Source: Sclerodactyla briareus (lineage: Eukaryota; Echinodermata; Holothuroidea; Dendrochirotida; Sclerodactylidae). Taken from it: a stretch of DNA of 64,000 nucleotides. Where the stretch lies: the NCBI GenBank assembly GCA_026419785.1, contig JAODTK010004854.1:1-64000 (forward strand), written 5' to 3'. The notes under the pieces are model-generated. The model had not been told where the DNA came from. It did not search any database and worked only from the letters and a program-made list of their open reading frames with translations. The position numbers were made by a program, and so were the translations under genes. This document shows, piece after piece, positions 1-64,000 of the stretch (position 1 is the stretch's first letter; every line of letters begins with the position of its first letter).

Positions 1-698
1 TGAATAGTATTTTTGGCACTGTTTTTCAATTTGGGAAAGCTGGAAGGTTGGGCAACTCTGTATTATAATCTACTATGTCAAATAGCGCAGTCCAGACCAT
101 AATTACAATAAACAAGTTCAAGTGGTACATTTTTGTTTCATTCATATAAAATTTCACAACGTAAATTCGACAGGGGACATGAAAAATGTTTTTCTAAAAT
201 TTGTAAAGGCCATATTTTCCATTTTATGTAACAATGCCTATCAAGTCGTTCCTGATGTATCCAACCATTGGACAAATGTACTGGTCATGGTGGAATCCAT
301 ACATTCCCTAGTACTTATTACCATTGCTGGTGCAAGAGTCCCCTGTGAAAAAGAGGACACCTAAATTTACACTAGGAACAAACTTTTGTTTGGAGCAAAT
401 GGTCATGTCACAGATTACCTTCAAACTAAGCTACAGGATGCAAAGGGGGCATGTCAAAATCCGAATCCGACACCCGTTCTAGCATTGCCATGTTGCGTAC
501 TCTCACAATTTACTTTCAAGAAATTGAGGAATGTGACAACAAAATAACGAAAGAAGTATTAACTTTGGAATGCATAAGATCATTCTTCAATATTTGCGTG
601 AACTTTTTATTCTACTCCCATCTATAGTTTCACGTTTTAATAAGGTTGGCAAAAGGCACGTTTTACATGCGACATGTTTATACGGGGGATCCTGTGGT

Positions 699-726
699 CC
701 CCCCCCTCCCCCCCCCCCCTCCCCCC
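699..726. repeat. C-rich homopolymer tract
   Basis: A run of C broken by two T. Copy B has a shorter pure C run at the equivalent place (57312-57327), so tract length differs between the two duplicates. Confidence 0.95.
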
Positions 727-1125
727 GTAATGTCACAAGGCGAATTCCGCATTAGTTCATGACCTAACTTTATTGGTTCACTCGGATCAGCTGAAATATT
801 CGTATGGGTGAGGTTTCGGCTAGCCATAGTTAATAAATAGCTAATACCAAAAGTGAAGTCCTATTTACATATGACACTAGCCATTAATGCCTCAACCTGT
901 AAAGGAATGTGAAGTTTCCACCAAAGATAATTTTTATTGTAACTTCAACTCTACTGTTGAACTAATCTTTCCTCCGAGTAGTGATGCCATTTCACGTCCC
1001 GCGCGTTGAGGGGAACGGCGAGGCTCAACCAACCCGAAGGTTGGGGGTCCCATGCCAATTTTGGGTGCGCAAAGCAGTGATGAAAAAAATTCTGTGGGTC
1101 CAAACGTTATGTATGGTCGGCCCTC

Positions 1126-1627
1126 ATAATGGTGCGTCTTTCCGAGCGAGTATATACCGTAAAGTCAAGATAAAACGCACGAGTTTTTTCGGTACACACG
1201 TGGTGACTTTGAGTCGTGACTTTGGGACTTACCAGATTACCCTATCCATTCCACGACTTGTTTAAAAAATGGCGACAATTGAGACTCCAATTCAGAAATC
1301 GGAGAGTCATCCCGAAATGTTCCATCCATGATAGGTATTCATGTTAATACTTTTGTATATGAGAAATTAAGGACCGAAATTCATGCCGTGAATAAAAATA
1401 CATACGTATACAATTCCATTTCAAACTAGTGCAGCGTCGAACGTCGAAAAGTGTGGTTTTTTCGCGTAACCACTACCCTATTCATTGCAATGATACAGTG
1501 GAGTTTTAATATTTCCTCAATGCCCCTGTATCGAACAAGTGTTGGTGTCGAAAAACGCACTCTCACCATTTGTGAACGTGTAATGTTATGGTAAATTCGA
1601 GTTCGAAGATCGCAGCTTCAGTCATCA
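1126..1627. mobile_element. Copy-A-specific insertion, possible MITE
   Basis: Roughly 500 bp present in copy A but missing from copy B, where the flanks meet at about 57735-57745. Near the junctions the sequence reads GGTGCGTC (from 1132) and GACGCACC (ending about 1641), an exact 8-bp inverted pair such as a short DNA transposon could leave. The interior has a stretch of alternating GTGAC/GTCGTGAC words at its left side and no convincing coding frame. The exact ends and a target-site duplication are not clear because the flanks are diverged. A deletion in copy B is the alternative. Confidence 0.35.
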
Positions 1628-2104
1628 GAGTCACGACGCACCGCCCCCATTGGTTGGCGACGGCGGCCAGCGTCGTTCGTCGCTGTCACCGTTACGCTCG
1701 AACAAGAATAACGGCTTTGTCAAATATTGTGGAACATACTCTTTCTCTTTTTGTTTCGAGAGTTACTGTGTAAAAAAAAAAAAAATCGATGGGTGATTCG
1801 CGGGCGTAGGCAGACACCTGTTCGGAATATACACGCCGCTACTTAGTTTCAATCAGGCCACACGCCGTTGTCGAGAAAGAGCTCGCTGGTCTCATTTACA
1901 AGTAAATAGTTGAATACACGGGCTTAAATCATCGCTGCCAAAGCATCCCTTCAAAATGATTTGAAAATAATCGGCGACATTCTGAAAAAAAGATTCAAGT
2001 ATAGGCCTACCCAATCGATGAGATCACGTAAGCCATCCCACTGATCTGGATTTTTTCGTGTCACCCTCAGTTCGGGGTCTGTCTTTCCACTTTCAACGAA
2101 TAAT

Positions 2105-2700
2105 CAATCAGTTTTGTTGACGTCACCGTATCGCCGCGCGATAATCACTGTGTAGCCGTAGGGGGGGGGGGCTTGTACCAAAGATTGAAAGGGAAAATGG
2201 GGAAATCGAAGGCTTAACACGTGAAATGAAGGAGGAGGGAGGAGGGACAGGAAATTGAATAAAAAATAAACAGCTCCAGTAATTTTGGAATTAATCCAAT
2301 ATGGCGCGGATGAGTGGGCTCAAAGTGGCATTGGGGGTAATGGGGGTATGGTGAGGGTACTAAGGAGCCCGCTTTGGGCGAAAGCCCTCATAAGTTCTCA
2401 TCCCCCCCCCCCCCCTCCCCTCCTCCCACTTATTCCCCCGGCTCTCATTTTCGTCAGTAGAGGGAAACAACCCAGCTACGTGGCCTGCATGGACAACCAT
2501 TGTGAGAAGTACAGTTTCCTGAGCTGAATTCCGGACCTCGTCGGATGCTCGTGGCAACGTATTGGCCCCTTCATTATGAAGAACAATGTGCAGGAGTAGT
2601 CGTCCGCGATTGTCAGTGACCCTCCGGCTGGTTTATACATAATTGAGGTTAAAACAATTGGCATAGTTTAATATTTCCGCCGATTGTATCCAAGTGCCTC
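2105..2700. other. Copy-A-only segment, no gene seen
   Basis: This replaces the equivalent segment of copy B (58210-58900). It contains a G10 run at 2161-2170, a GGAGGAGGGAGGAGGG stretch near 2231, and a C-rich tract at 2402-2431. Short open frames on both strands here lie over the C tract and have no recognisable features. Confidence 0.6.
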
Positions 2701-3205
2701 TCGATTACTGGAGTGCCCATATCAGGATACCCCGAGGTGAATCTATCTCACGCTGATGCGAGTAACTTGCGACAGTATTGACTGGCGTGATGAGCCCCCA
2801 CGAATTTTTACGATGAAAATCAGTTCTATGTTAACAATTTTTGACTTGGTTTCCACGGAATCCATAGAGCTAATTAGGGCTCATCAAGGAGTTGGTCGTG
2901 GGGGTTCGTTGATGAGCACCGCCGAACTCGCCGTCTCTCTCGACTAGTGCGCAACTTTTATCGAGCTGCTGGTTTAACCATTCCCAACCTGCTCTTGGTA
3001 CGCCATTGTACTTCCCCATTCAAGGGACGATCAGTGAACTTCGGGAACCGACCACTTTCTCGTACCAGAAGGACGGTAGAATATCGGTCCCGAACATGAC
3101 TGTCATCAGCCAACCATGGCAATTATTTCAACTATCCCGTAGCAAACCACAGAACCCCCTACATTACAAATGAACCATTATAGGTTTACCTCCAACACCC
3201 CTCTC

Positions 3206-3441
3206 AACCCCCCCCCCCCCTCGCCTTCACCCCACCCCCCCCTCCCCCCCCCTCCCCCTCCCCCGCCATTGAATTAATAAACAGGAAGTTTATCTTGAAG
3301 AGTCCTTGAAAAAACTTTTAAACCTGGATGATACATTTCCCCCCTGAAATCTTGAAATTCCCATCAGGGTAAATTTCCCCCTGGTTGGAACCACTGACCC
3401 TAGAGGATGCGTCCCATGGCTACTACTATAAACACTGATAC
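3206..3441. other. Copy-A-only segment with long C-rich tract
   Basis: Starts with a polypyrimidine tract (3211-3264, almost only C) and continues into ordinary sequence until collinearity with copy B resumes at 3442. Copy B has a 2.2-kb segment at this place. Confidence 0.6.
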
Positions 3442-5664
3442 CAATCACGTGACCGAGGGCTATTGTTGTTGTTATATATACTATACCCATAGAGAGTAAT
3501 TGCACAAAAAGCTTTAGGATCGCTACATTTTGTTCAAAGATCGCCAATATATTCAACAAAGACTCGACCTCATCAGACATTAACGCTGTTAACAGCAGCC
3601 ATCTCATTCCAGATCAAGATTAATATAGCACATTAACTCTGTGTAATCTAATTGCTTTCCTATAACGTATTTTCTCGATGGACAACCATTTAATACACAC
3701 ACCTGATCAAGAAATTGGAAGTAGTACAATCTTTTTTAATTGAACCAACGGCTCTTATAATAATATAAGGTGTGCATTAGCATCCCCATAGCCTAAGTAT
3801 AATATTGAAGTTGGTCTGTCTATTCATTCGGTTTCTGTTGGGTCGAATCAAAGTTGCCGCTTGCCAAGAGTATTAGCATGCTTTTAGCCTCCATCAGATC
3901 AGTAATTCCATTTGGACTGAAGCGCTGTACAGTAATTAGGTTGCATGGTTCTCGTGTTTGTGTTAAATTGAAAGATGTTCCATTCACCAACGGCAAGGCA
4001 TTTTAATTCATTTGGAAAAAATCCAACTCTAATAGCCCCATTATAAATATCATCCATGTCCATCCTGCCATTCGCATTCGATCGGGTATAACCGTCACTA
4101 TATATATCAATGCTACATAACTAATATACCGTGATGTCGAAATACAAACACTTGGCTTATTTTCCCTCCCTGTGGGCTTCATGTCGCGCGCAACGTCGTT
4201 TATTCGGATGGATGTTGCGAGACGATATTTTCCCTTTATTAAATACTGGAATAAGCAAAAATCGAACAATTTGAGAATAGGCGGTTTGTTTACCAGATTG
4301 TGAAACTTGAAACAGGTCAGATAGGTGCAAACCATTACAAGAAATGTTGGCAGTTCCACTTTTTTTTTTGTTGGATTGAGAAAAAAAACCACCCCCACCT
4401 CCCTGGCTTGTTCACGTTCACTAATTCATTTATCGATCCCCATTTCAGATACTCATCATTCCTATGGTAATATGAGTCCTGGCCATTTGCCATGTTTCAT
4501 AATATAATCCTGGTCGGAAGTCATATAATGTGGGTTTTGGGGCCATGCATGTCCACATTTGTCACTTAAACTAATACTCTCATCCGACCTATTTAGATAG
4601 ACAACTTCCTCCTTTGAAATTCATGCCATAGGTCGAAAACAACGCTACAAGATCAGGCTGTCAGGGATAATCGAGTGCTTTGTGAGCCTCTTAGCGTCAA
4701 CAGACCATCGCTATGACTCGCTACTCTGACTGCTTGCTTCAAAATTTTCATCAAGCTTTCCTCACTCCCACTTCTTTTACACTTCGTGCAACAATCGGAA
4801 AAGATCACAAACGGTATCAAATCAGTTGGGCCACAGACACGTAAACCCTGGTTTATAACCCTGACTCACATTCAGGTTCCCATACCTGTCCCAATCTTCC
4901 TCAATTCGATCGAAATAGGTAACGTAATCCTTCAACATTGGAATCTTTTATGGCCTTTTGATATCGAAAAAGTACTATTTCCACTAATATAATATTCGAA
5001 TTGAACCCGCGGTCTTTATCACAACTAGGATATGAATACTGCAATCTTCATTTTGCCGTGCGGCGGCATTGCATCCATGAAGTCCGAAAAATACAACCAA
5101 AACAACATAATCGAAGAACGAATTTGTCAATCGTTCACAGCATTCATTCTGACAAAAGTCACAACACCCTCCGAATGAATAGGCATTCATATACCAGGTA
5201 GTTATTACAAAGGATTGGACAATACACGAAATTTATACGTACTTATATCCCTGAATCATATCATTCGACAATCAGGTAGCAGAAACAATATGACAACCGT
5301 TCCTCTTCGAGATATTATTCCTTTATTTCACATCATCTTCATAAAGCCATATTCATAACACGCGGTGAACTTATTCTTTTTTGTCAACCTTCTCGTTAAC
5401 ATATCCACAAACAATGTCTGATTCCTTCTCATGAGCCAACACACTTTTGATTGGTCGAGACAAATGTTGATCTGATCCTCTCAAATTATTGCCAACGAAC
5501 ATTTCATATTCATAGTAATAACTATCATCATTCAATATATTTAGAAAAAATATCGTTCGAACAGCAGTCATGCCGATTCACGTTATTATACAGGAAATGA
5601 ACTCATCATTCGAAATTGAATTGCTCTCAAAAATTAGGGCCTCTTTCCAACCATTGTCCTTAAA

Positions 5665-6460
5665 CACAGGTTGATCATATAAACTATATCCATAATAGTT
5701 GGGATAAATTAAGCGCTAATCATTAATATAAGTAAGTTTGCCATTTCATAATTCGAGCAATGAAAAAAAATTTAAGTTCGATGGGGAGATGAGGTAATCA
5801 CGCACCCCTGGTTTGCGCATACAGCGCGTGAATACCCTTCAGTCGAGGAATGGGCTACGGTGACCATAATCGTCGACTGGGATTCCGTGCCCCCATACCA
5901 AGATGGCGCTGACAGTCACAAAACATCCATTGACCCCCCACCACATCCTTTTCCGTGCACCCTAACGTTGGACACAACAGTCGTGCCATTTTGTAACCAA
6001 GGATTGCATGCATGATAGGCTAGAGATTCGAATACCATCTCCGCGGACACCAACAGTTCTGTGGAAATCTTTCGGCTACTCTTTTTTCCCCCGATTGGTT
6101 TACTTCCAACTAATTTATATACGCTTTATTCGTTAATTACAGAATGCCGTATTAGTCCCGAAAACCTTGAGCACAATTCTATTCCTACAGCTTGAAGGTT
6201 ATCGGGTAAGTCCGTTGAACACTGTTGTTGTATTTTTTCTCAAATATCTGTCAGTCTGTATAAAATCATTGCTTTGCACAGGAGTATTGAGTGAATTGAC
6301 AATGTGCTACAGCTTCCTACTGATGTATCAACGTTCGTAACACGAAAATAGACAGGGCATTGGGGGGGAGGATTAAGACTGTATTGGACTCCAAGGCTAT
6401 ACAGAACCATTCAATATTTCTAATTTCAGATGGCAAGAATATATGTTTACCGGAATATAG
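5665..6460. other. Intergenic, nothing recognised
   Basis: A/T-rich sequence after the visible end of copy A alignment. No coding frame, tandem repeat or family member was found. Confidence 0.5.
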
Positions 6461-6463
6461 AAA

Positions 6464-7364
6464 ATGATAGGACTTTATAGAGGTTCCCATGTAATAAATA
6501 GACCATGGAACCACTTCAGGGTCAGTATATTTCACAGTTGTGAATGCGATGGAACAGGCACTATCAATCGAAAATTTGGAATAACCAAATCAGACATGTC
6601 TCTTATAACTTTCAGATCCAAACACCCCCTCCATTGGCCGTCAGAAGGGATCGTCCAAGGCGATCCAGCGAATCATCGAGATGTGGACGTCATCACGGTG
6701 TCCCAAGCCACTGTCCGGACGCAACTCGACTCAGTTTTGCTATAGCAAGTATCACATGCGATAAATCCCTGTGCTCGGCGCATTTCGTGTTTCTGAAAGA
6801 GCTCTCGCCGGCTGTTAGTGGTTCGCTTTCTCCTCCAGAGCGATCTGAGGCAGGCCAGTACGCCAAACACCGTCGGTCGCATCATGGCTATCCACGGATG
6901 TAACGTAGAACACCGGGCATGCCTTCATCCACTCTTCTGGAACACCCGGGCGAGAGGTCTGGGAGGTACTCTGCAGATCTCTGTCTCTACTGGCAGGGAA
7001 GAGAAAGTCCTGTGCCTTCAGGAGCGATCGTACAACGAGGAAATCTTCTTGCCACGAGTTCGCCATGGTATCCACAAGATTGCTCTCACTACTGCCGTCC
7101 CGGGGTACAACACCAGACTCACCAACGCATACAACAGCGCCAGACGTCGGGGGCTCTGGAGGAACACGTACGCCGACGACAAGTGATGAAAACTTCGCAA
7201 AAGGGGTACAGAGTTCTTTAACGTCGAATCGCCGCCCGTGTTCGGGATCGATAACGATATAGATAGCGGGAGGAACTTGCCAGATACGACCCAACATTGT
7301 AACAACTTATCAGAGAAGCTTTCCCGCTGCATGAACGGCATCGTGGACAGATGCGCAAATCAAG
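6464..7364. CDS. Uncharacterised coding-like GC-richer patch, strand uncertain
   Basis: This is the most GC-rich unassigned stretch in the first 10 kb, and several frames are open on both strands. The longest is on - (6815-7297, 160 codons) with no recognised domain. On + a Thr/Ser/Pro-rich frame runs from about 7065. A second + frame ends with a Cys-spaced segment (C-x9-C-x7-C around 7286-7355), immediately followed at 7365 by GTAAAT, a plausible donor site. I lean to the + strand because of that donor. The Cys spacing recalls small extracellular helical Cys-rich domains, but that is inference only. No frame is open throughout, so this may be an exon disturbed by indels, an old gene remnant, or chance openness caused by base composition. 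Confidence 0.3.
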
Positions 7365-7369
7365 GTAAA

Positions 7370-8520
7370 TACTTGTCTACGAAAGCAGTTAATTTCGCGA
7401 CATGTTTCACGTATAAAAAAAACACTAAAACCAAAAAAATAAAAAAACTGCGGATCCAAAAGGGTTCAAGTATTGGCTGACCCAACTTAATAAGGGCTTT
7501 CGGGGCAGTCAGACATCGTTAAGGACGTGACTGATCGTCAGGTCAAAGGTAAAATCTTAGTTGTAGGCATAATCACTGCTTTATCATCCGTGAGATATAT
7601 TGTCATGCGCAGTACGCGCTACTCGGTTACATGTGGGTATTTTCATTGCAAAAATCCCAGCAGGGACAAGCACGTTCACAACAATTAAATGTTGACTACT
7701 CCTTTGATACACATCAGACCTCCCGAAGAATCGCCTACCTAAATTAAGCACATCACCGGCCTCCTTCTTAATAATAAAATGACTGTCAATGTGACGGATA
7801 GCCCTACAGTGAATGAATTGTTCGTTAGTCCAGACAGTATAGACTCGTAGTGCAAATAGGTGAATGGGTATGGTGAGAACCCCACGAGAGAAGCTATTCT
7901 ATATCATGCTTGGCAAGGCACATTCATATCAGTAGGAAAAAAAAAAAAAAAACAAACCCCCCCCCCCCACCGCCCCCCCCCCCCCCCCCCCAACTGCCCC
8001 CAAAAAAAAACAAAAAAAAAAAAAAAACCCCCCCCAACAAATACTAGAGGTAGGCTATCATTCGACTACATATCTGTGTTTTATGAGTGCTCGCAGATGT
8101 CAGTACTCAAGTGATAGTTGAACTATAAAGGTATAATTTTGTCATATCGAACGCTTAATTGGCCTATCGACTGATTTGTTGTTCAGCCATCCTTTATCGA
8201 GTAAGTTTGAAAATTGACGGATTAAGCAAAAATGGTACTTTACTCGACGTCATGAAGGATCAGATTCGAATGGAATGTTTGTGAAAAACAAGATGGCATT
8301 TATTAGATCATCGGTCCGAAGAAAAATGCATGGGGAATATTGGATGAGAATAAATGATGAGATATTGTAGTGACTTTGCCATTTCACTAGATTCACTGTT
8401 GCTGGTGCCATAAGAAACGGTTGCCTATGTAACCATAGTGGTGGTGAAGTATATCCCTGGGGTACCATGGTGGGGTACCCCTGCGTGCCGGGTGATCCAG
8501 CAATGAGGTGCACTGCAAAG
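7370..8520. other. Intergenic with A/C homopolymer block
   Basis: No gene seen. Positions 7937-8036 form a block of alternating pure A and pure C runs, which yields a meaningless Lys/Pro frame. Confidence 0.7.
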
Positions 8521-8530
8521 TTCCGTTGTT

Positions 8531-8564
8531 GAGTGTGCGTGTGCGTGTGTGTGTGTGTGTGTGT
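8531..8564. repeat. (GT)n microsatellite
   Basis: A GT dinucleotide run with two C interruptions, directly before an R-A repeat body. Confidence 0.97.
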
Positions 8565-8689
8565 TGTTTGCGTTTCCGTCTGATTTTGGTGGTTTTTCAC
8601 AAATATCTCGATTTTGGAATGGCTGAACAAAGTAAAATTTTGCACCAACTTGATAACTCACAACAAAACACATATTTTTTTCAAGAATA

Positions 8690-9300
8690 AGGTGGGAAAA
8701 CTATCAAAATTGTGGAATTTTTTTTAGAGAACAAAAAACGAATTTTGGGGCAATTTCTCAATTTTACCAATTGCACTATTTTTCACGATATTCGCTGATA
8801 TCGAGGGCTGAATGATTTCAAACTTGTAGCAATGTGAAATGGCACAAATTACAACTTTTCCCATGCAATCAGCCGAAAATTACCAAAAGTGTGGATTTAA
8901 GGTGTAAATTGGATTTTGGGCCAAATTTTGGAATTTCGAAAATCTGTTCTGTTTTCAGTATATTCAGAAATTGGGAGGACTGAACGATTCCAAATCTTAG
9001 AACAAGGTACAAAGTATCAAGACAAAGGGTTCCCCAGAATTTATGCTGTAAATTTACTGAAATTTAGATGAATCTGAATATTAATTGGGGAAAACAGCGG
9101 TTTCTAGACTTATTTTGATAAATTTCGTCTATTTGTAACTCGCGAAAAGGCAGCAGGTAGAAACAACTGATTAGTTCCACATTTGCCGATGAGATCCTGC
9201 AACTCTGGGGATTGCCCTCTTGTTATGCTTTTTTCTTCAGATCTCATATCCAGAGCAACCCAGAGAATGAACTGTGACGGGTCAAGTTTGGATTTCACTT
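8690..9300 (-). repeat. Dispersed repeat R-A, copy 1
   Basis: An A/T-rich sequence that aligns with 10365-10790 over most of its length. Shared words include 'GAACAAGGTAC.AAGTATCAA' near 9002 and 10539, and 'GATGAGATCCT.GCAACTC' near 9189 and 10723. Weaker matches occur at 23690-24110, 25825-25885 and 60640-60890. Strand is given so that the tRNA-like segments at 9640-9790 and 10790-10920 are at the 5' end. There is no coding capacity. I interpret it as the body of a non-autonomous element of unknown class. Confidence 0.75.
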
Positions 9301-9306
9301 CTTTCC

Positions 9307-9344
9307 TGTGTGTGTGTGTGTGTGTGTGGTGTGTGTGTGTGTGT
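9307..9344. repeat. (GT)n microsatellite
   Basis: A GT run with one GGT interruption, inserted between the R-A body and the tRNA-like segment of copy 1. Copy 2 lacks it. Confidence 0.97.
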
Positions 9345-9639
9345 AACTAGCGCTTATGTGTGTGAAACTAGCGTGGATATAAATAGCAATATAAAATAAT
9401 ATAGAAAGGTGGTGGAACGTACCGCATCACTCAACTGAAAGGTACTGAAGAACAAAATTGGAGAGAGAATATTCCCATGCATTTTACAATCAGTACTGCC
9501 TGACATAAGTTACAGATACGCCCTTCCATATATACTTTTTCTCCTGCACGGATAATATAAAACGACTTTCAATCAGATATCCAAATGAATGAGCAGTTGA
9601 ATGAATAGAAGAGACATGTCACCTTATATACACCTCCTC

Positions 9640-9790
9640 TTACTTTCTAAGCACTGGGACCGGCACAGGCACGGGTACTGGTGGGCGGCCTGGGGACCAA
9701 TGCCAGGATTCGTACCAATATTGCCTGTCTTGTGCAGGCAGAGGGGAGTGTGAACGGAACCCGACTTGTATGTTGGAAAACTGAAGGCTG
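9640..9790 (-). repeat. tRNA-like SINE head next to R-A copy 1
   Basis: Read on -, this contains 'GGTACGAATCCTGGCATTGGTCC', close to a polymerase III B box (GGTTCGANTCC) followed by acceptor-stem-like sequence. The segment at 10790-10920 has the matching 'GGTTCGCGCTTGCATTGTGGTCC'. Both lie on the same side of an R-A body. No clean cloverleaf can be drawn, so this is not an intact tRNA gene. Confidence 0.45.
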
Positions 9791-10364
9791 AGCTATTCGC
9801 AAATGTAAGTAGGCTATATATATGAACAGCAAACAGCAAAGGTCGGAGGACAAATCCACCGCCCCCTCCCCCGCCCAAAAAGTCGTTCGTCATTCACTGT
9901 ATGTCATTAGATGATCAACCTGATGCATCGGCAAATTGTACTATCATCAAAATATTCAGGCAATCTTTTCACTCCGCTTTATTACCCGCCGAGTTTCTTA
10001 GTTCGATCCCGAGTTTTCTCTTTTCCCGAATCTCGGAAGTTCTAATCTTAAGAATTGGGGAATTTGTCGTCACCTCGATTGTACGCCAATGTATGAAACT
10101 CCGCGTAAGCATCGGTGTAGAAAAAAAAACACCATCAGCTAGAAGAAGGTGCGGGCTTCGCTAGCTACAGGAGGTTTAGAACTAGAGGCAAAACACGCAA
10201 CCTAGCCCTACAAATCTACTTGGTTATCTCTAGGGTCCGGATGAGATACTGTGGCCAGTTTGCCATGTCACCATACTTACTCTGTGCACGCGTTTTGCTC
10301 TAACCGTAGTGGTGGCTAAAACTTCAAACTGAGGGGTACAATATGGTTGGGTGAATCGGAACTT

Positions 10365-10790
10365 CAGGGGGGGGGGGGTAAACACATTTTGGGGGCAAAT
10401 TTTTCACTTTTACCAAAATAACAAAAAATGCGGATTCAGGGGGAGGAAATGGATTTGGGCCACACTTTGGGATTTTTGAAAATGGGGTTTTTTCAGTATA
10501 GTTAGAAATGGGGAAAGACTGAATGGTTTTCAAATTTTGAACAAGGTACCAAGTATCAAATTTAAGGGCTCCCCAGCTTTATGTTAAATTTCTGGAATTC
10601 TTGAATATGGATAGTTTGGGGGAGGGAAACGACTATTTTCAAACATATTTTGATAATTTTGATCTGTTGGCCAACATGCAAAATATTTGCAGTAATGTCG
10701 AATGAATAGTTCCACACTTTGCTGATGAGATCCTTGCTGCAACTCGGAAATTGCCTAGCTCTTGTCATTATTATTTGTCCTGTTTCTACT
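10365..10790 (-). repeat. Dispersed repeat R-A, copy 2
   Basis: Aligns with 8690-9300. Here the body joins the tRNA-like segment at 10790-10920 directly, with no microsatellite between, which is the best evidence in the window for the element's overall structure. A G10 tract lies just left of it (10369-10378). Confidence 0.75.
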
Positions 10791-10920
10791 CTAGGTACTG
10801 ATACAGAGACAGAGGGGGGCCGGGACCACAATGCAAGCGCGAACCAACCGGTGTACGAGCTGGGCAGCTCGAGGTGAATGCCAGAGGAATCCACATACTG
10901 CGCCTACCTACTGCCAGCGA
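10790..10920 (-). repeat. tRNA-like SINE head next to R-A copy 2
   Basis: On - it reads through a B-box-like word (GGTTCGCG) into GGTCCCGGCC, parallel to the segment at 9640-9790. The position directly upstream of an R-A body suggests a tRNA-headed SINE about 0.5 kb long. Confidence 0.45.
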
Positions 10921-11039
10921 AGATTGCAGGCAAGTGTCAGTAACATATCGCCATCTAAATAATAAATAGCGACACCATGAACACCAGAAGTGTGCGAAAG
11001 AGGTTGGATACAAGAGCGGGGACAGAGAAAATTCCCGCT

Positions 11040-12610
11040 CCCCTAAATTGCATTTACTTCACTAGACAGTTTTGTCGTTGTGTTCAATATATAAGACTGT
11101 TACTGAACTGAATATCGAATTCAGTGAAGTGGTCGACATCCTACGCTGGAGCAGGCCCTTTATTCTTCCTGCCTTATTCACTCTTAGTTGTGCGAAAACG
11201 GGCATAAATTATGCAGGGAAGAGTGCGTTATAACGAGAAATCAAATTAAGGTTACAGGTGAACTGAACAAAAGCCAGTTGCCGCCCGCCATTTACAACTG
11301 TTGGTGTACTTTTGATTCATTATAGTTGACTGCCCGATACTAGTTCATGTGTTTGTAAATCGAGGGCGCGCGTATAATTTTCTAAGATGGCTGAGAGGCG
11401 CGGTGCATACCATAAACTATTTCGTGAACAGACTTTGCCAGAACCTAACTATAGTGACAACTACGGGCTGTGAATTGATGGGCATAACTTGGATTTGGCG
11501 GTATTGCGCTGCATGCTATCATACTGGATGGTCATGTTGAATAAATTCCAAAAAACGATTAAACCAACACGAAAAGGTGCTTAGGTTCCAAACGAGGGAG
11601 GATGGTATAATCAGCTCATTGATTTAAAGTTTGATAAGGTAAAGTTGAGTCAGCGAGGTCATGTTCCCTTTTAAAGAAACGAAATGATTTTGCCTCAGTA
11701 TGTTGACCGGAATAAGTCGAACACTCATGTAATATTCCAGAATTTAGACATGCCTACAGGACATCCGACTTAGGTGGGTTTGAAAAACATGGGACTCAAA
11801 GTGAGAGCGAGGAAAGCTAATAGTTTCACCATAATACATTATATGATTGAGTGTTCGTCGTTCATATGTCAGTATGGGACTTATTATATTGGAACCTTTC
11901 AACTGCTTGTGGGCCATGGCCAAATGTATTTCTATGTTTAATGTACAGATGTTGTAGCAAGTTTTGTTCGCCGGGTATAAGGTTAATAAATCATCGTTCA
12001 CAAATATCACGTCATTCGAGTCACTGCTTTGTTGTGGGCAAAAAATGTTCGCCATTCGGAGATTTGGTTTCAAGCCTGCAAGCAGGGGTAGAGGTCCGCC
12101 TTTGTGCCCGGCATTGGTATATCTAGGTAGTTACTGGTTTATGCCTAATTGTAATCCCATTTCCCATGAATCAAGGGCGCACCACTGGGGGAACGTGAAA
12201 ACATAATGTCTGGGGGACCACGAAAGTTGGGGAATAACTGACCACCCCCCCCACCTCTTGTGCTGCGCCTCTTAGGCTGGAGGAACCACTTCGTTTGTAA
12301 TTTGAGGAACTGCGGGACTGTTTCCTTAAAGCATTGCTACAGTGACAGCAGAAAAGGGCTCAGGGCAGTTATGTGGTATGATTCGCGACAGGGTTTTTCC
12401 TATACCATTAATTTCGGTTTATATTTTGGTAGTTGATATACACCCGTCCAAAAATGAAGCGGGATATTAGAATGCAACGGGGAATCAACAGTCGAAGCTC
12501 AACACTCAGGATGACCCGTTGACGATCGAATCCGCAGGTTGCCTTGAATGAATGCGGGTTCAGCTCTGTCCACGCCCGACAGTAATTGTTTGTCGTAAAG
12601 TCAGATGCTG
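11040..12610. other. Intergenic, no gene seen
   Basis: Short overlapping open frames on both strands (for example 11744-12206) but no domain, splice or repeat evidence. Confidence 0.5.
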
Positions 12611-12611
12611 G

Positions 12612-12630
12612 AGGGGGGGGGGGGGGGGGG
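12612..12630. repeat. G homopolymer
   Basis: A run of about 18 G. Similar G or C runs of 10 or more occur at 15401-15416, 16041-16050, 20692-20702, 24597-24608, 42360-42376, 43258-43274, 43519-43531, 49109-49118 and 54742-54753. Confidence 0.95.
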
Positions 12631-12700
12631 CACGACCAAGGCCAGGCAATGCGCGCTGAGATTGGCCATTCCACGTCATACCAAAATCATAATGATCATG

Positions 12701-12971
12701 CACTGCAGTAGTTTTGTTCAGTTATGTTACATTGCTGGACCTCCGCTTACAATTGAGGTATTTATAGACATATAATTGGCAATGAATGGGAAGTACCATG
12801 ACCTGTATAAAGTCAGCTTTAAAGTCGTGCTTGACTCATCTGCAGTAGTTTTATGTCCGTTCATGTACCTTGCTGACCCTACGATTACCATTGAGGTCAT
12901 TTATAGACATTTAATGGCAATGAATGGGAAGTACCATGACTGTATAAATGTCAGATTTAAAGTCGTCTGAC
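12701..12971. repeat. Two-copy tandem duplication, about 135-bp unit
   Basis: Units at about 12701-12834 and 12838-12971 share 'CTGCAGTAGTTTT', 'ATTTATAGACAT' and 'GGCAATGAATGGGAAGTACCATGAC'-type words, with scattered substitutions and small indels. Non-coding. Confidence 0.9.
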
Positions 12972-13139
12972 TAGCTCTGGCGAAAACCTTTCCTGGGCTC
13001 AGCAGCTCTCGGAGGGGAAGTTTCAATTTAGACCTGTGAGTCAAAAATGCCGGGTGAGCGTGATCAGGGTCCTGTTCAATCTGCGATGGATTTATGCCTT
13101 TTCCAGGAAGTATTAATTTTCCTATTTTGGAAACGGACT

Positions 13140-13560
13140 AAAGCCCCGTTTCCCACAGTTGAGAATTTGATCACGACGGCGCTACGGATTAGCAATTTTT
13201 CCCAAGGTTGGATTTCGTGAACACATTTTGGTTGATCGTGTTCATCGTAGTGGCGCCGTAGTAGCGGCCTCTGATCGTCGCAGTGATTCTTAACGCTGTC
13301 GCGAGCGGCGAAGGTCTACGTTTTTTTTCTTCAAAAAAGTCGTAATGAGTCAGAGAGGCTTCTCAATTCGTGACATCGAATTGGACTTCGTAGCGGTTTT
13401 TTGTCGCACTAGTCGTAAGCGGCCTTTGGTCATTCGTATGATCGTGAGGCTAACATTGGTGACGAGGGCGCGCCTACGATGGCCAAGCGACTTAAGTTTC
13501 CGAATGACGCTCAAATTTCTGCTAAGGCCAACAAGAAAAAAGTCAAGAGGGGAATAAGTG
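13140..13560. repeat. Palindrome-rich GC segment, MITE-like
   Basis: Begins with 'AAGCCCCGTTTCCCACAG' and contains imperfect inverted words built on GGCGCTACGG and CGTAGTGGCGCCGTAG (13171-13265). Openings of the type 'GCCCCGTTTCACAC' followed by repeated CG-rich palindromes are common in short DNA transposons of invertebrates. No transposase frame is seen, and the ends are not defined. Confidence 0.35.
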
Positions 13561-13599
13561 TATACTACATCGTTGAAAAAAACATTTACGTTTGTTTTA

Positions 13600-16020
13600 A
13601 TCATCTGCGAATTTCTTCTACCAGATGCCCCCACGCATACCTTGTTGCTTCATAATGAAGATGGTATAGCATAGTGCAAGATTCTGGAAACCTCTTAGTG
13701 AGAGTACCCTGTTTCAGAATGCGCAGGAAAGTCGACGATCTATTACGGACAAAAAAAAAAGCACAGAAACAACTAATCAATTCGGGAATGAAAAGAAAAA
13801 TCGATGCGCCTCGGCAGAAAACCGTATAGGCAGTAAAGTTATAACAGTACGATGTGAATTAGAGCTTATTAATGCGAAGTTCGAATAAGCGGAGGCTGTC
13901 AAACAGAACGTATTCTAATCTTTTGACGAGATGCGAATCATATCGCCCGAATCACGTCACATTAACATACTTATAAGTGCGGGCGCTTGTTCGGGGCTTA
14001 GCGGACACGGTTCATACGACTTCTGCTCTGCATAGAGCTCCAGTACCGGCATGGTCCAAGTATGTTGCCACAGATCGAGGAATGTTTTATAACTCGAGGG
14101 GTTTATTGCAGTGGAAAAGGGGCAGGACACCATAGTAGACCCTATCGCTATAGTTCTCCACAAGTGAAAGGTTGTTTTCCAGCTAAACTCAGTTGAAAGT
14201 GTTTACCATGAATCGGAAGTCATTTTTATCCATGAAAATTGAAAAATAACAAACACACTGTGTGATTGAAACTTAGGCACTGTTTTCGAAAAATACATGT
14301 TTTATTACTCACCGGAATAAAAAAAATGGGTTAGTATTCCAAGCCTAATCAGGGATTCGTATAAGTGTTCCCCTAAACAAAAAACTTGCCTAACAGCAGC
14401 AGTGATCGTGGGCTAGAGAAGTGTCTGATGTTTTGCATTGTATGTATAGGGTTAGGAGTAATGTGTGCTTATCATTATTTTCCTGATGCGTCCTCCTATG
14501 TTTGCCTGAGGTATTGTCAAGCTGGACATTAGTTTCAGTTTGGCCAATTATAATAATTTACAACGTTTTGAAATTCAGGTTGGGAGCTTGCAGAGTGTAT
14601 AGGCCGTTATTGAATAATGTTATTCAAAATATTCAGTATCAATTCATCAGAAATATCATCTGCCCTTATGAGCCACGCCATCATTATTTGCGGACGATTG
14701 AGCTAAATGAAGGAGCGCGAAGAAATAACAATCAAGGTCCCTCTGGACAAGACTACCATTCAACTTGTATCAGGGGGATGAGCCCATGGTGTTTTGCAAC
14801 GAACAAAACTAATTATCCTTGGTATCTCCCAGTCAATAATGCAAAAAATGTTGAAAGACAGATTTTTAGTTCATATGAAAATAAAGGTTTTATGGGAAAT
14901 GGCAGTTTGAATAGACACGTAAATGGATGTGCCAAAATATCTGGAAGAAGGAGGATCGATACGAAAGCGGAAGGGAGGGTCTCATCATATGTTAGTTACT
15001 ATAATTAATAGGCCTTATACTGGCACAAACTTTGCGGACAATGAGGGTACTCAAAACGTATTCGGGTGACTCGATCTATGAATACTCCAGAGCCAAAAAA
15101 AGATCAATCTGACTCGAAATACTCATTTGATTGAGTGATGAATGATTACCGACTTATTTGAACGATTTTGAACACAAAATACAATATGGCAAACAAAAGG
15201 TAAGAATGTGGCTCAGGGTTACTACAGAAATCGTATCTCGTTCTGATATAGCGCTTTTGCCACGTGGAAAACATGCTCAAAAAGGCTTCACAATATGACC
15301 ATGATGATAGATAATGACTTGTCACATCTGTGATTATAAGCACGCACCTCGTGCTGGTTCCATCCCGACCAACACTTACTGTCGTAACTCGTCGTGTCCC
15401 GGGGGGGGGGGGGGGGTCCATTAGGCTGCCACCATACGGCACGCTCGCTACTGTTAACAAGTGACCAACATGAACCGCTTCTGGGTGGCGTGGTACATTC
15501 CAGGAGACATGCCTTGTCCAAAAGCACTGCGGAAAAGTCCTAGGCTTACAATGGGCTACGAAACTAGCTAGCGTTATTGTGCAGTCTGGGAATCTAGGGA
15601 TACCGACTGAGCGAAACGCCCTCCCCGAAAGCTACTGCAAGTTTGTAAAATTGATAAACCCACTACGTAAGTGTGGATGATGAAATGAGAATCAAGAGAA
15701 TGTGGAAACAAATGAAAACGCAAACCACCCACCTACATACATTTACCAAACGTAGTAGCAAGTTGAACGACACCGATCACATTTGCTGTACTACAATATG
15801 TTCTTTCATTTTAAGCTTGAAAAATGCTATAGTCTGCGGACTTTAAAAGTTCCCTTAGCCTTCATTTCATGACCTTTGCAGCCAAGACGCTACCCATACT
15901 GTAGTATCATTGTGTTGACTGATACGAAAAATACAATTGAAAACGATTGTGAAACGATAATATTCATAATTTCCGTAAATTTTGATCCATAATAAGTCAA
16001 TAATGTCCAGTCAGGCGCGC
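13600..16020. other. Intergenic with unassigned open frames
   Basis: Holds a 168-codon open frame on + (14502-15008, no ATG at its first codon, no domain recognised, Asn/Arg-rich C-terminal half) and a 69-codon frame on - (13957-14163). In an A/T-rich 64-kb window a few frames of this length are expected by chance. There is a G16 tract at 15401-15416. Confidence 0.4.
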
Positions 16021-19563: not shown

Positions 19564-19569
19564 TTTGTT

Positions 19570-56630: not shown

Positions 56631-58224
56631 ACATGAATTAGTATTTTTGCACTATTTCAATTTGGGAAAAGCTGGAAGGTTGGCACACTGTGTATTACAA
56701 GTCATACTATGTCAAATAGAGCAATCCAAAATGACAATAAAAACAAGTTAGGGTACATTTTTGTTTCATTCATATAAAATTTCACAACGTAAATTCGACA
56801 GGAAACATGAAAATGTTTTTCTAAAATTTGTAAAGGCCATATTTTTCATTCTATGTGAAACAATTCCTTCAAAGTTTTCTGCTGTACATAGCCATTGGAA
56901 AAAAATGTACTGGCATGAGTAAATCCGACATTTACTATGGACTTATTACCATGTGTATGGTGCAAGAGTTCCTTCTGTAAAAGAGGACAACTAAATTTAC
57001 ACGAGAGCAAACTTTTGTTAGAGGCAAAAGGTCATATAACAGATTTCCTTCAAACTAGCACAGGTGAAAAGGGGGCATGTAAAAATTCGACCACCCCGAG
57101 GTTCTAGCAAGTCACTTCCAAGAAATATTTGAGGAATGTATGACATGATAACAAAAATACGAAAGAAGGTATTAACTTTGGAATGAATAAGATAATTCTT
57201 CAATATTTTATGAACGATCCTGTAGGTTTTTATTCGACTCCCAATCTATAGTTGAAGGGTTTGCAAAAGTACACGTTTTACCTGACATGGGTTATACGGG
57301 GATCCTGTGGTCCCCCCCCCCCCCCGTGATGTCACAAGGCGAATTCTGCAATAGTTTGTGCCCTTACTCATTCGGATCAACTGAAATTCGGATGGAGGGT
57401 CGGCTGCCATAGTGGTAAATAGCTAATACCAAAAGTGAAGTCATATTTACATGACCATCAGCCTGTAAGGCCCTCAACTGTAAGAATGTGGAGTTTCCCA
57501 CCAAAGAGTAATTCAATTGTAACTTCGAAACTGTACCGTCTTACATCAATCTTCTCCGGAGTAGGATGCCAATTTTACTCCTCCCGATCGCGATTGAGGG
57601 CAACGGCCAAGGGTGCAATCAACGTCTGAAGTTTGATGGTCCAAAGCAAATTTTAGGAGCGCAAAGCAGTGATGAATATTTTTGTGTCGGCAAAAAAAAC
57701 TCTATGTATGGCGGCGCTCATAAGATTTTGGGGTCACGAACCACCGCCTCCAGCTGGTTGCGACGACGGCCAGCGTCGTTCGTCGCTGTCACCGTCTTTG
57801 CCAAATATTGTGGGGACATACTCTTTTTTTCTATCTCTCTCTTTTCAAGAGTCACTCTGTGAAAAATGAATATAAATGGTGATTCTTTGAATATTTGAGG
57901 GCGTAGGCAGACACCTGTTCTGAATATATGGCGCCGCTACTTAGTTTCAGGCCACGCGTTGAAAGAAGAAAAAAGAAGGAGCTGCTGGTCTCATTACCAG
58001 TAAAGAGTTGAATACACTGCTTAACATCGCTGTCAAGGGTTCTCATTCAAAATGAGCTGAGAAAAATATCGGCGAAATTCTTTTGAAAAAAGTAAAAAAA
58101 AAAATGTCATAAGTAGGCCTAACTAATCGATGGAGATCATCCCCACTGATCTGGAATTTGTCAGGTCACCCTCAGTTTGGGGACTGTCATGAGTACTTTC
58201 AACTAAGATCAAGACCAACTGCAG

Positions 58225-58650
58225 TTCACATTCTCCAAGTTTCGTTCGAATCTGACAGAGTTAGAAAAATCTCGAATAAAACGCAAATTTGACCTCTGGT
58301 GACCTTGAAATTACCGTCATTTTTTCGGGACCCACTTTTGTCCCCACTCATCAGTTTCATCCATGTTAAATCGACTAACTCTGTATATTCGCAAAAAACA
58401 ATAAATTTGACTTCCGGTGACCTTGAAATCACCGTCATGTTTTTCGGGCCATTTGTTGTCCCCACCCACCAAGTTTCATGTAAATCGAACTAACTCTGTT
58501 TTTCCGTTCAAAACCTGCAAAATAGAGGGCAGCAAACATGCAGTGACGCCCACTTTTGAACTCATCCGAGATTTTGCCAGGACAGACATGTGTACCAAAT
58601 TTCAGATCGATCGGCTTAAGTGTTAAAGAGTTATTGCGCTATATAAAAGA
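58225..58650 (+). repeat. Dispersed repeat R-C, copy 4, inside copy B
   Basis: Two and a half tandem units of about 125 bp, built on 'GGTGACCTTGAAAT.ACCGTCAT.TTTTCGGG' and 'GTCCCCAC.CA.CAAGTTTCAT', lie at 58300-58500. Then 'GCAGTGACGCCCACTTTTGAACTCATCCGAGATTTTG', 'GACATGTGTACCAAATTTCAGATCGATCGG' and 'AAGAGTTATTGCGC'. Absent from copy A, so it differs between the duplicates. It lacks the hairpin tail. Confidence 0.88.
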
Positions 58651-58870
58651 GCAGATAGATATGGAAAATATACTTTACGGATGCTGTCAAATCATATTTA
58701 AGCCATCTGATATTCAAATCTTCTTAAAGTTCCATTCAGCCTTTGAACTATTCGAGAAAAGAAGCATCATTGATATTGAAAATGAATGTCATCGTTCGAT
58801 AACTCATCTACAAGAAGCACTTCAGTCAAAATCACAGTACTCAAACCATTTCTATTCTCGGAGAAAATGA
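58640..58870 (+). CDS. Short coding-like fragment, unassigned
   Basis: About 75 codons following the R-C copy, ending TGA at 58870, read as a helical, Ile/Glu/Ser-rich peptide (for example SIIDIENECHRSITHLQEAL). It is present only in copy B and starts within or just after the repeat, so its true 5' boundary is unclear. No family recognised. It may be an exon carried with the inserted DNA, or chance. Confidence 0.25.
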   Translation, partial: YIKEQIDMENILYGCCQIIFKPSDIQIFLKFHSAFELFEKRSIIDIENECHRSITHLQEALQSKSQYSNHFYSRRK

Positions 58871-59504
58871 TGGATGGATGGTGCCCGCCCCCCTGGTCCC
58901 TTCTATTACTGGTGCCCATAGCAGGATATACCAGGTGAATCTATCTCACTGCTGATAATAGCGATGACTCGCGACAGTATTGACTGGCGTGATGAGCCAG
59001 AATTTTACGATGGGAGGGGGTGGGGAGGATAACTGCGCGGCAGTCGTGGCCAGACTCCCGTCAACCGAACCCTCCACCAATGAATCATTGCTATGTTAAC
59101 ATGTTTTTTTATTTGGTTTCCACGGGTTCATAAAGCCGATTAGGGCTCATCAAGGAAGTCTGGTCGTGTTGTTCGTAGATGAGCACTGCCGAAAAACTCG
59201 CCTTCTCCTCCCGACTAGTTCTCAAATGTTATCGAGGCTGGGGTGTTGCTGTAACCATTCCCAACCTGCTCTCGGGACCGCCATTGTACTTCCCCATTCA
59301 AAGAGACGATCAGTAAATCCGGGAACCGACCACTTTTCTCGGTACCAGAAGGAACGGTAGAATAAAGTCCAACATTACTGGTCAGAGCCAACCAATGGGA
59401 ATTATTGATAATATCCCGTAACAAACCACAGAAACCCACTATACATTATAGAGGAACCATAAGGTAACGACCAACACCTCCACCATGTAATGCGAGTACA
59501 TTCA

Positions 59505-59590
59505 CCTAGAGGATACGACCACTGGAACTCGAACTCGCAATGTTTGCTTGCAGAGCTTCACTGATACCAGTCTACCACTCTTCCTCCCAA
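59505..59590 (-). repeat. tRNA-like SINE head, second copy
   Basis: On - it reads GAGTGGTAGACTGGTATCAGTG (A-box/D-arm-like), CTCTGCAAGCAAACATT (TGC anticodon-like) and GAGTTCGAGTTCCAGTGG (B-box-like). It matches the + strand segment at 40655-40725 over about 50 bp. Confidence 0.6.
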
Positions 59591-60639
59591 TGAGCAGTAA
59601 TGTTATGACTAATAACCTCTTCAGCAAATATTTCTGGACAGCATCATCCAGGTCTTACAGGACATTCAACGGTCTCTGGTACCAGCGATTCCTACATATC
59701 TACATGCACTAACCGTTTTTTTGTAGATTCTCTCCGGCAGGCCAAATCACGTCTATCTCTCTAGAATACGAATGGTATCGGAGTAAACCAGTCCTAAGAC
59801 CCCCAGCCGTTGTTGACACTCTAAGATCACCTTGTTCATGAACATTGATTAGGACCCACAACACTCAGCACGTTTTTGCGTCACCAACTGTACTATCTGA
59901 CTGCCCAGGTCCAATTTTCATCACGTTACCCGACACAGCAAAGAAATGGAACGTTGAACGCTACCAATTTAAAGTTGAAGTTCTCGCGCTGCTCGAAACT
60001 GCGAGCAGCTTACGCGCTTCTCCGGACGCATCAAGAGATGATTGGTGTAGCGTAACGAGCGGAACGTGCACATGGCTGACTCGTGGATAACTCGTTGAAT
60101 GTTCAGTTATTTCTGAGACAAAAAAAAAATATCATTGCGTCAGTGAGATATACATGTGTATATTCGCACGTTTCTCTCTCGTAATTCAAATCAAATCATT
60201 TCAGGCGTTCGATTAAGAGTTCGTGCATGCAGTAGAGGTTCGTGCATTTTATTTAGGAATGTGGTTCGTTTCAGACACTTCGATTTTGAGAAGGTGTTGT
60301 GATGGTGCACTGTATTCATGGAATTATTACCTCACAGGCCCTCTTCTCCCTGGTTCAGCTGAAATCTGAAGAGATCGTGTAGCAGAACGATAAACCTGAA
60401 TCTCCACCCTAAGGTTCTCATGCGAAATCCATCAGACAGAAGTCAGCTCGCTATTTCACTATTATTCACTGTTACTGGTCGTCATAGCAGTAGCGGTTGC
60501 TATATAGTGACAGTTATGGTAGATGAAGATCTTGAGGTTACCCTATATTGGGGTACACATGGGTGTATGGTGGTCCTTCGATTAGGTGTACTGCAAGGAG
60601 AAAGCGTTTTTATCAGAAGATACTCCGAGTTTTGATATA

Positions 60640-60890
60640 ACTGAACGAATTCAAATTTCACGCAAGGTTAATTGTCTCAAAACACATGTTTGGATTGAAA
60701 TTTGTAAAATTTAGGGTGGAAATTGGCATTTTGGACTAGCATTTTAATTATTCTACAATCTTTTTACCGTACGCATAAGTGGTGGTTACTGGTTACAATA
60801 GCCAACTCATCTTTTTCCTTGCATTTAGGCAAAATTACCAAAATCGTTCAAGGGTAATACGTTATTTTCGACTGTCTCATTGTGCGTGAA
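60640..60890 (-). repeat. Dispersed repeat R-A, copy 5 (degenerate)
   Basis: Shares 'TTGCATTTAGGCAAAATTACCAAAATCGTTCAAGGG' with copy 3 (23934-23975) and 'AATTTAGGGTGGAAATTGGCATTTTGG' with the copy 1 region near 8895-8925. Present only in copy B. Confidence 0.5.
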
Positions 60891-63800
60891 TATCAATACA
60901 CTACTGAACATGGAACACGGAATGTAACAGCTACTCCAGCACTACTCCAGTACTATATGTTATAAGCTTATCAAACGAACTATAGGCACGTGAATTATTA
61001 TCAGGGTTGGTTGGCACCGAGAATAGGTAGATGAAAAAGGTTCACAGGGAGACACATTGATATACCTGCGTGAATAACAAAAAGTTAATGTTATATATAC
61101 TTTCTTGCGTTGCAACTGTACTGAACTTTCGTTTTAGTCGCCTCTTGGAATGGAATATTCTATACCACTCTGAATTCACATTGGAGTTGGAACCAAAGAC
61201 CGTTCAAGCCAGGTGTACCTTCTTGTGACATATGCTTACCGGGCTACTGGTAACTCAGAAAGAACGAGTCATTGGAGAACTAATCACGAAGAAGCACTAA
61301 CATAATGATGACGGTATACCTATCTGCTAGGATGTCACCGCTCTTTCTGCATATTAACGCTGACCAGAATCCTTGGTAATCCCTATAATTATCGGCGCCT
61401 GGTCGTGGCAATGTGTTCCGAGGCTTACAATATGACGTCACCCTATACCAGCGATTCGTGACGTCATTCACATCTCACCAGGGGCCGTTTTATCACAGGA
61501 AGTAGCCTGTAGACCTACAGCGACGATCAGCTATGTTTCCTGTCAGCCTCGACCCCTGCTGGTGATATAGATGATATGGGCCGCGACGACTATACCCAAA
61601 TATGATGGGTATACGTAACTCACAGTCGAGAAAATCCAATCACAATCGACCTTTAACACAGTGAAAACAAATCCGTTATATAGAACACGGGCATTTTCCG
61701 TCGACTCATTGCTTTTGGAGCGAATGAGATGGTAAATCACGTGACCGAGGGCTCTTGTTGTTGTTATATATTCACCCCAAGAGAGTAATTGAACAGAATA
61801 AAAGCTTTAGAATCGCCAATATATTCAACAAGACTCAACCTCGTCAGAAATTATTAGCGCTGCTACACAGCCATCCAGCCAAGAATACCGCAACAATTAC
61901 TCCTGTGTAATCTATTCATTTCCCTATACGTATTGTCTCGAGGAACATCAGTTATACACCACTCCCGATCAAGGAATTGGTAAGTACTACAATACTATGT
62001 TTTTGATTGAACCAACAGCTCTTATTATATAATTATTAGCAGCCCAAAGCCTTTAGTATAATATTGGAGTTGATATGTCTATTCATTCGGTTTCTGTTGG
62101 GTCGAATCGAAGGTTGCCTCTTGCCAAGAGGTATTAGCAGCTTTAGCCTACCACCAGATCAGTAATTCCATTTGGACTGAAGCGCTGTACAGTAATAATT
62201 GTTGCATGGGTCCGTGTTGTGTTAAATTGAAAGATGTTCCAGTCACCACAACCGGCATCATTGGTAATTCCTTGAAATCCAACTCAATTACCCCATTATA
62301 AAATATCATCCATGTCCATCAATGCCATTCGGCATCGCGTCTGGTATACCGTCACTATGATAATTCAATGCTACATACATATACCGTGATGTCGAATGAT
62401 ACACTTGGATGTTTTTTTCCCGTTACGTCATGTCAGTCGCAACGTCGTTTATTGGGACGGTTGGATGACGATATTTTCCCTTCCCTTAAAACTGATTAGG
62501 AGCCAATCAAACACCAATATGAGATAGCGTTTTTAAATCATATTGTAAAAATTAACAGTTCAGTAGCAAACATTGACAAAACTTTGGAATTCCATCCACT
62601 TTTTTGTATGTGAATTATAATCCCCCTCCCCCTCACCATCCCACCCCCCCCCCCTGTGTCCTTCACGTACATAGGTTTGTCTTCCCTTGACTAATTGCAT
62701 TTTAATAATCCCCATTTAAGATCCTTATCATTCCGATGTACATAGTCCCTCCGTTTGTCCATGTATTGCTTACATTTACTCACTGTTTGGGAAGTCAATA
62801 ATGTGTTTTGCATTCATGCCCACATTTGTCATTAAACTGAAATACGCTCCATCACGACATAATTAGGGAGACAAACTTCTCATTTGAAATCATGCCATTA
62901 GGTTCGAAAACAACGCTACAAGATCGGGGCTGCAGATAACGGATGTTTGCTATTAGCTCCAGCAGACCATCGCTATAGACTCGCTACTAACTGCTTCAAA
63001 ATTGTCATCAACCTTTCCTCTACTACCTCCCACTTCTTTTTTACACTTCGTGTATATACCTATTAGCGATTGAATCTACACCAAACCGTACGATCACACC
63101 TGTATCAAATCATTGCAACAGGAACGGTTTTTCCCTGGTTTATTAGCATGACTCACATCCGGTTCCCCATACCTTCCAATCTTTCGCTCAGATTCGTTTC
63201 TAAAATACACACTTTGTAAGCTCAACAATACTATTAAATAAGTACGTATTCGTCCACATTTGGAAGGGTCTTTATGGTCCCTTTGAATAGAAAAATGTAA
63301 TATTTCACTATGATAAGTTTCGAATTAAACCCGCGGTTCCTTATCACACACAAACCAACAGGTTAAATAAGGGATACTGGGAATCTTCATTTGGTCAGTT
63401 GCTGCGTCATTGCATCCATGAAGTCCAAAGAATACAACAAACAAAAATCGAAGAACGAATCTTCATTTGTTCGAGCACTTCATTCTAAACAAAGTCACAC
63501 ACCCCAGAATGAATAGCATTCATATTACGCAGGTAGTATTACACGGATTGGACATACACGATTATTACTTATAACAACTGATTTTCATATCATATCGAAC
63601 AATCAGGAGCAACAATATGAGGACTGTTCCTCATTCGAGATATTATTCCTGTATTTCACCTCTGCTTGCATAAAGCCATATTCCTAAAACACGCGGTGAA
63701 TTTATTCATTTTATTTTTATTTTTTTAACATTCTTATTTAACATATCCACAAACGAATTTCTGATTCCTTCTCAATCTCATCGCCACACAATTTTTGATT

Positions 63801-64000
63801 GGTCGAACAATGTGGTGATCTAGCTCCTCTCAATTATTTCCAACCACATTTCATTAGCACTATCATTCAATGATATTCTACAAAAATATCGGTCAACATC
63901 AGCAAATAACTGCCTGATTAATTTGATTAACTAAAAATGAACCATCATTTTGAATTGAATTGCTAAAACATATTAGGCCCTTTTTTCAACCATTGTCCAT

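Follow-up and report, generated by a model that had tools for sequence, protein, structure and literature searches.

A segment of at least 13.5 kb occurs twice, in the same orientation, in contig C2504 (JAODTK010004854.1; 162,947 bases) of the draft assembly GCA_026419785.1 from the holothuroid Sclerodactyla briareus. The window analysed here comprises bases 1-64,000 of this contig and contains one copy, A, at its left end and the beginning of the other, B, at its right end. The explanation that we favour, and to which we give an even chance of being correct, is that a direct segmental duplication with two copies, genuine and fairly recent, lies in a draft assembly that was poorly polished. 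The position, extent and orientation of the copies, the insertions that set them apart, the two occurrences of their core block and the error-like spectrum of their differences are direct observations. As judged from the assembled bases, most of the base-level differences between A and B are probably consensus errors and not mutations. The finding itself is ordinary, a recent duplication or an assembly artefact, and is nothing new; two-copy duplications and assembly duplicates are everyday and carry little biological weight.

Layout of the two copies

Self-BLAST of the window aligns A (1-5,659) with B (56,634-63,998) collinearly on the same strand at offsets of 56.1-58.3 kb, with E = 1.9e-160 for the best block, and thus confirms the direct, same-oriented duplication that a preliminary description of the window had proposed. 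The minimum lengths given there, 5.7 kb for A and 7.4 kb for B, also hold and become larger in the full contig, in which the homology continues to 13,523 in A and 75,595 in B. The stop of B at 64,000 (56,634-64,000 on the plus strand is its in-window part) is merely the window edge. A (1-13,523, plus strand) begins at contig base 1 and is truncated there, so the duplication measures at least 13.5 kb. As assembled, A is 13.5 kb and B is 19 kb long, their starts are 56.6 kb apart and approximately 43 kb lies between them; the contig contains no N. The copies were described as framing the window, and they do lie at both of its ends, but the framing is partly a coincidence.

Identity between A and B as assembled is approximately 71-82% by block. 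The larger blocks pair 1-1,129 with 56,634-57,723 (76%), 1,630-2,107 with 57,733-58,212 (71%), 2,694-2,815 with 58,896-59,012 (82%) and 2,818-3,199 with 59,083-59,478 (80%), followed by the core block, 3,443-7,938 with 61,735-66,404 (75%), of which 3,443-5,659 and 61,735-63,998 fall in the window. Further right, 8,061-8,287 pairs with 66,413-66,651 (78%), 9,281-12,837 with 67,067-70,666 (76%) and 13,046-13,523 with 75,148-75,595 (74%). Nowhere else in the contig is the sequence between the copies (13,524-56,633) repeated collinearly. The suggestion of a tandem duplication with a unit near 56.6 kb fails the check proposed for it: beyond 64,000 only 5.7-13.5 kb repeats, and the next 87 kb contains nothing collinear with 13.5-56.6 kb. 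A 56.6-kb tandem array was accordingly rejected, as the homology ends at 13,523/75,595.

Insertions and copy number

Different insertions had been reported at about four places, which the in-window blocks bear out. The first is an A-only dispersed element of approximately 490 bp (1,129-1,629, plus strand) that resembles a miniature inverted-repeat transposable element (MITE), with an empty site in B whose junction letters lie at 57,723/57,733. Its inverted ends appear as opposite-strand matches at positions 443-483 of a related copy. Assembly-wide searches covered 319,486,128 bases in 3,171 contigs, and with bases 1-3,000 as the query this MITE-like element accounts for 39 of the 44 listed matches, on other contigs and at 73-80% identity; every off-contig match is this one dispersed element and the remainder of the query matches C2504 only (best 40 of 475 candidates). 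At the second place, A 2,108-2,693 and B 58,213-58,895 are unmatched to each other, as by a replacement or independent insertions, and the B segment includes a dispersed-repeat piece (58,284-58,641) that recurs at contig 38,343-38,580 and 154,271-154,508. A B-only segment of approximately 2.25 kb follows at 59,479-61,734, opposite 243 unmatched bases in A (3,200-3,442). Elsewhere it is matched solely by a 142-bp dispersed repeat at 60,251-60,392 (best 40 of 248 candidates), and within the contig B 60,441-60,596 resembles A 8,369-8,518.

Beyond these places, A carries an insertion of approximately 930 bp (8,288-9,219; 8 bases in B) that mostly resembles contig 147,892-148,752, and a 138-bp unit is present twice in A (12,703-12,966, plus strand) and once in B (70,528-70,657). 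B carries a 339-bp insertion (66,728-67,066) and one of approximately 4.4 kb, from 70,668 to about 75,050, at a site near 13.0 kb in A. A search with the first 3,334 bases of the latter returned 52 match rows, one of which is itself. Four other contigs match nearly all of the searched part at 78-79%, and 14 shorter rows share the start of the four near-full ones at 70,668 to within 4 bases. Because shortened copies that share one end are the pattern of a long interspersed nuclear element (LINE), and because its minus-strand peptides seem by their motifs to resemble LINE reverse transcriptase, the insertion is probably LINE-like; none of five peptide pieces matched Pfam at E up to 1. At least two of the several large insertions are thus multi-copy repeats.

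How many copies of the segment itself does the assembly hold? The core block (3,443-7,938) has three matches assembly-wide, namely A itself and two pieces of B (two first-look candidates). The 43 kb to the right of A and the 87 kb to the right of B have nothing collinear in common in the whole-contig self-BLAST. Assembly-wide, piece 19,000-23,500 from between the copies (best 40 of 1,109 candidates) and piece 84,001-88,500 from the right of B (best 40 of 323 candidates) matched dispersed repeats only and yielded no collinear second copy. The latter region includes a 1.85-kb dispersed repeat (85,323-87,177), of which other contigs carry dozens of long copies that are approximately 73-81% identical to it.

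These results bear directly on the earlier suggestion that A and B are the long direct terminal repeats of a very large mobile unit. The arrangement, in which long direct copies stand on either side of unrelated sequence, has the expected shape. A mobile unit should recur with shared ends at more than two places, and the 4.5-kb core block is found at only two in 319 Mb; the intervening piece 19,000-23,500 likewise lacks a collinear second copy among the candidates scored. Moreover, none of the nine long reading frames of the contig (five in the window, two of these in A, and four beyond) matched a Pfam domain at E up to 0.1, and only those two lie in the duplicated segment. We regard a mobile unit as barely credible, and the suggestion finds no support here.

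Base-level differences between the copies

The alignment of A and B comprises 11,775 columns with 1,270 mismatches and 776 gap openings, or 0.61 gap openings per mismatch. The count omitted 9,220-9,285/66,660-66,727 and 12,840-12,966/70,528-70,657 (the second unit of the tandem pair), as well as the non-collinear matches 8,369-8,518/60,441-60,596 and 8,856-9,234/68,229-68,615. Transitions make up 428 of the 1,270 mismatches (0.337), close to the random expectation of 1/3. As a reference, 15 pairs from six copies of the MITE-like element on other contigs gave 441 transitions in 770 mismatches (0.573) and 0.25 gap openings per mismatch. Binomial tests of the A/B fraction returned p = 0.79 against 1/3 and 3e-64 against 0.573, values that serve as guides only since the sites depend on the alignment. 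Among isolated mismatches, transitions number 57 of 156 (0.365, interval 0.29-0.45), as compared with 0.571 in the reference element.

Simulations argue against an effect of the aligner. Simulated evolution at 0.573 transitions reads back 0.46-0.49 at similar gap rates and 0.54-0.59 at isolated sites, whereas simulated error reads back 0.33-0.34 and 0.31-0.36, so the two processes are separable and the A/B spectrum is not produced by alignment. When the upper confidence limit of the A/B fraction (0.364) is set against the simulations, up to about a fifth of the mismatches could be real, equivalent to roughly 2-2.5% divergence. By true substitutions, A and B have probably diverged by no more than a few percent, and the low identity is probably not a sign of age.

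Noise confined to A was considered and rejected: in a four-way comparison of one repeat common to A, B and two other places, a single stretch of approximately 380 bases, A and B show similar numbers of private substitutions (33 and 42) and private indels (6 and 5), with 19 unclear, and neither is the cleaner copy there.

One reading in the preliminary description was that the duplication is old, which would mean that the copies are truly diverged by approximately 25%. The measured block identity and the several large insertions between the copies fit such an age, islands of 41-58 identical bases could be constrained elements, and a repeat pair with one copy in B (58,405) looks error-free. The transition bias of the reference element is nonetheless absent from all 1,270 mismatches and from the 156 isolated ones alike. 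The gap-to-mismatch ratio is also about double that of nine other repeat pairs in the contig (0.61 versus 0.32), and the MITE-like copy of A averages 12.7 points below a related copy, as described in the next section. An old duplication is therefore unlikely in our view, and the label is unsupported by differences of an error-like spectrum. We consider it very improbable that the differences are real in another way, because neutral DNA in this lineage evolves without transition bias and gains approximately 0.6 indel events per substitution; if that were true, a duplicated segment would lose alignability mainly through small indels.

Signs of error elsewhere in the assembly

A comparable spectrum was found on the 15.9-kb contig C1362 (15,884 bases), on which two adjoining histone-cluster units are 69% identical with a transition fraction of 0.33 and a gap-to-mismatch ratio of 0.74. 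Neighbouring units of a histone array are expected to be nearly identical, and C1362 is likely an unpolished, read-like contig. Each of the four histone-family matches in the assembly covers only 56-91 of 122 positions; at the three of these four loci that were read, fragments that look H3- and H4-like are spread over several frames. The GPCR family PF00001 gives 126 matches; only two of these reach 250 or more of the 260 positions, and seven stops interrupt each of the two. In a frame count on the 73 of 126 rows that share a contig with another row (several distant same-contig rows omitted), all 19 continuing pairs without room for an intron lie in different frames, on 16 contigs with three pairs from one locus. 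This 19/19 arises partly by construction, given that same-frame neighbours would merge into one match, and the telling figure is the number of loci.

The MITE-like element, absent from B, allows A to be compared with other contigs. Its copy in A has a mean identity of 75.9% to 24 common targets, 12.7 points lower than the 88.5% of a related copy (L003), where only targets listed for both copies were kept.

Reading frames are thus often broken in this assembly, and the remark that the duplicated DNA looks non-coding is hard to judge. When A and B were compared in six frames, the 40 best matches included short ones in several frames, on either strand, and made no case for coding. An RNA gene was rejected, as neither an Rfam match at the gathering threshold nor a tRNA was found in the window; a separate tRNA search reached a best score of 48.7 bits among the 63 of 18,062 candidates scored, too small a share to be used. 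Error can disrupt frames and look like divergence, so 75% identity is no proof of age here, and a non-coding appearance need not mean non-coding. The transition fraction together with the gap-to-mismatch ratio offers a quick, read-free test for error-inflated divergence.

Duplication or assembly artefact

A segmental duplication or low-copy repeat is at least 1 kb long, at least 90% identical and not a high-copy repeat. The A/B pair exceeds 1 kb, has few copies and is not a high-copy repeat, and it resembles such duplications in its length, in its few copies, which lie in direct orientation on a single contig, and in the transposon insertions that differ between them. It departs from them in its measured identity of approximately 75%, with 71-82% by block as assembled and an error-like spectrum, probably through assembly error, and in that A is truncated at contig base 1. 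In the explanation that we favour, the draft was probably built from long reads and not well polished. The duplication would be recent and the 13.5-kb junction real; the copies carry different insertions, including the MITE-like one in A and the multi-copy, probably LINE-like one in B. A repeat at 13,569-14,026, 46 bases past the right edge of A, recurs inverted at 42,635-43,068 and may have taken part as a breakpoint repeat.

A false duplication, in which one locus is represented twice, as a pair of alleles or of error-laden versions, is a close rival of the genuine duplication, and only reads can decide between them; we hold it to be a realistic but less probable explanation. It covers the two divergent haplotypes in one contig that the preliminary description had named as a reading. 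A would be a contig-end fragment misjoined, possibly via the repeat at 13,569-14,026, to the sequence 43 kb to the left of B. Consistent with this, A begins at contig base 1 and a repeat lies 46 bases past its right edge. Many large presence/absence insertions on a background of little true substitution would resemble alleles of a very polymorphic species, and the core-block search found no third or fourth copy to stand for other alleles. Extracts of a survey of such errors (PMC9516828) describe them as common, occupying 4-16% of three earlier assemblies with 7-24% of them on the same scaffold, and as mainly heterotype, with sequencing errors a minor source. A and B resemble the heterotype or homotype duplications outlined in those extracts and in part of the purge_dups report (PMC7203741) in that they are near-copies in one error-rich draft, one of them at a contig end; they differ from those in the PMC9516828 extracts in being separated by 43 kb of other, gap-free sequence. 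Haplotypic duplicates should also share allelic flanks, and what follows A on the right is unrelated to what follows B, with 13.5-56.6 kb and 75.6-163 kb lacking a collinear match. Neither flank piece searched assembly-wide has a collinear second copy among the candidates scored. A false duplication thus needs, in addition, a misjoin at 13.5 kb, in a contig without N.

Several observations weigh against the genuine, error-laden recent duplication. The junctions at 13.5 kb and 56.6 kb are known from the assembled contig alone, the unrelated flanks could be explained by a misjoin, and A starts at contig base 1, a place prone to assembly artefacts. The copies also differ by more large insertions than a young paralogous pair would lead one to expect. 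Error is uneven along the contig: a 358-bp tandem pair at 110.8 kb (110,815-111,531) is 97.5% identical, a 111-bp array at 120.1 kb has only 0.07-0.09 gap openings per mismatch, and the repeat pair that has one of its copies in B (58,405) shows 87.6% identity over 242 columns and a transition fraction of 0.81 in 21 mismatches. On another contig, C2424, HSP70-like exon pairs have transition fractions of 0.61 and 0.48 and a gap-to-mismatch ratio of 0.17, with single-base gaps present. High gap-to-mismatch ratios are not peculiar to A/B, since two of three scorings put a tandem array at 123.9 kb at 0.90-0.93. For the nine other repeat pairs of the contig the transition fraction is approximately 0.41, which differs from both 1/3 and 0.573. 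Eight identical A/B runs of at least 35 bases were found, compared with 0.9-3.1 in simulations.

The spectrum is itself open to other readings. The isolated mismatches alone, with an upper limit of 0.446, would allow approximately half of the mismatches to be real. A single element family supplies most of the reference spectrum, and neutral DNA without transition bias in this genome would erase the contrast with A/B. The MITE-like copy in A could simply be older than its relatives. A few-gap MAFFT alignment of A and B gave 605 transitions in 1,496 mismatches (0.404), a value that is uninformative because simulation at the few-gap setting returns 0.381 for error and 0.427 for evolution.

Other features of the contigs

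The 358-bp tandem pair at 110,815-111,531, in an otherwise noisy contig, is possibly a one-read stutter or a clean patch. C2424 carries two HSP70-like multi-exon genes in direct orientation approximately 74 kb apart, with two aligned exon stretches 83-86% identical, and these are probably real paralogs. Of the 14 HSP70 matches found in the assembly, 13 lie on this contig, which is odd for a complete animal genome. Around the 111-bp array, contig 118,833-121,825 contains some of the longest open frames in the contig (246, 237 and 183 codons), which have no Pfam match and look like a repeat-protein coding exon with a frame break. Further tandem arrays lie at contig 123,531-125,554 and 140,176-142,082, with offsets near 232 and 318 bases. 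Within the window, 37,573-37,868 consists of adjoining ATAG and TAC microsatellites and then an A tract.

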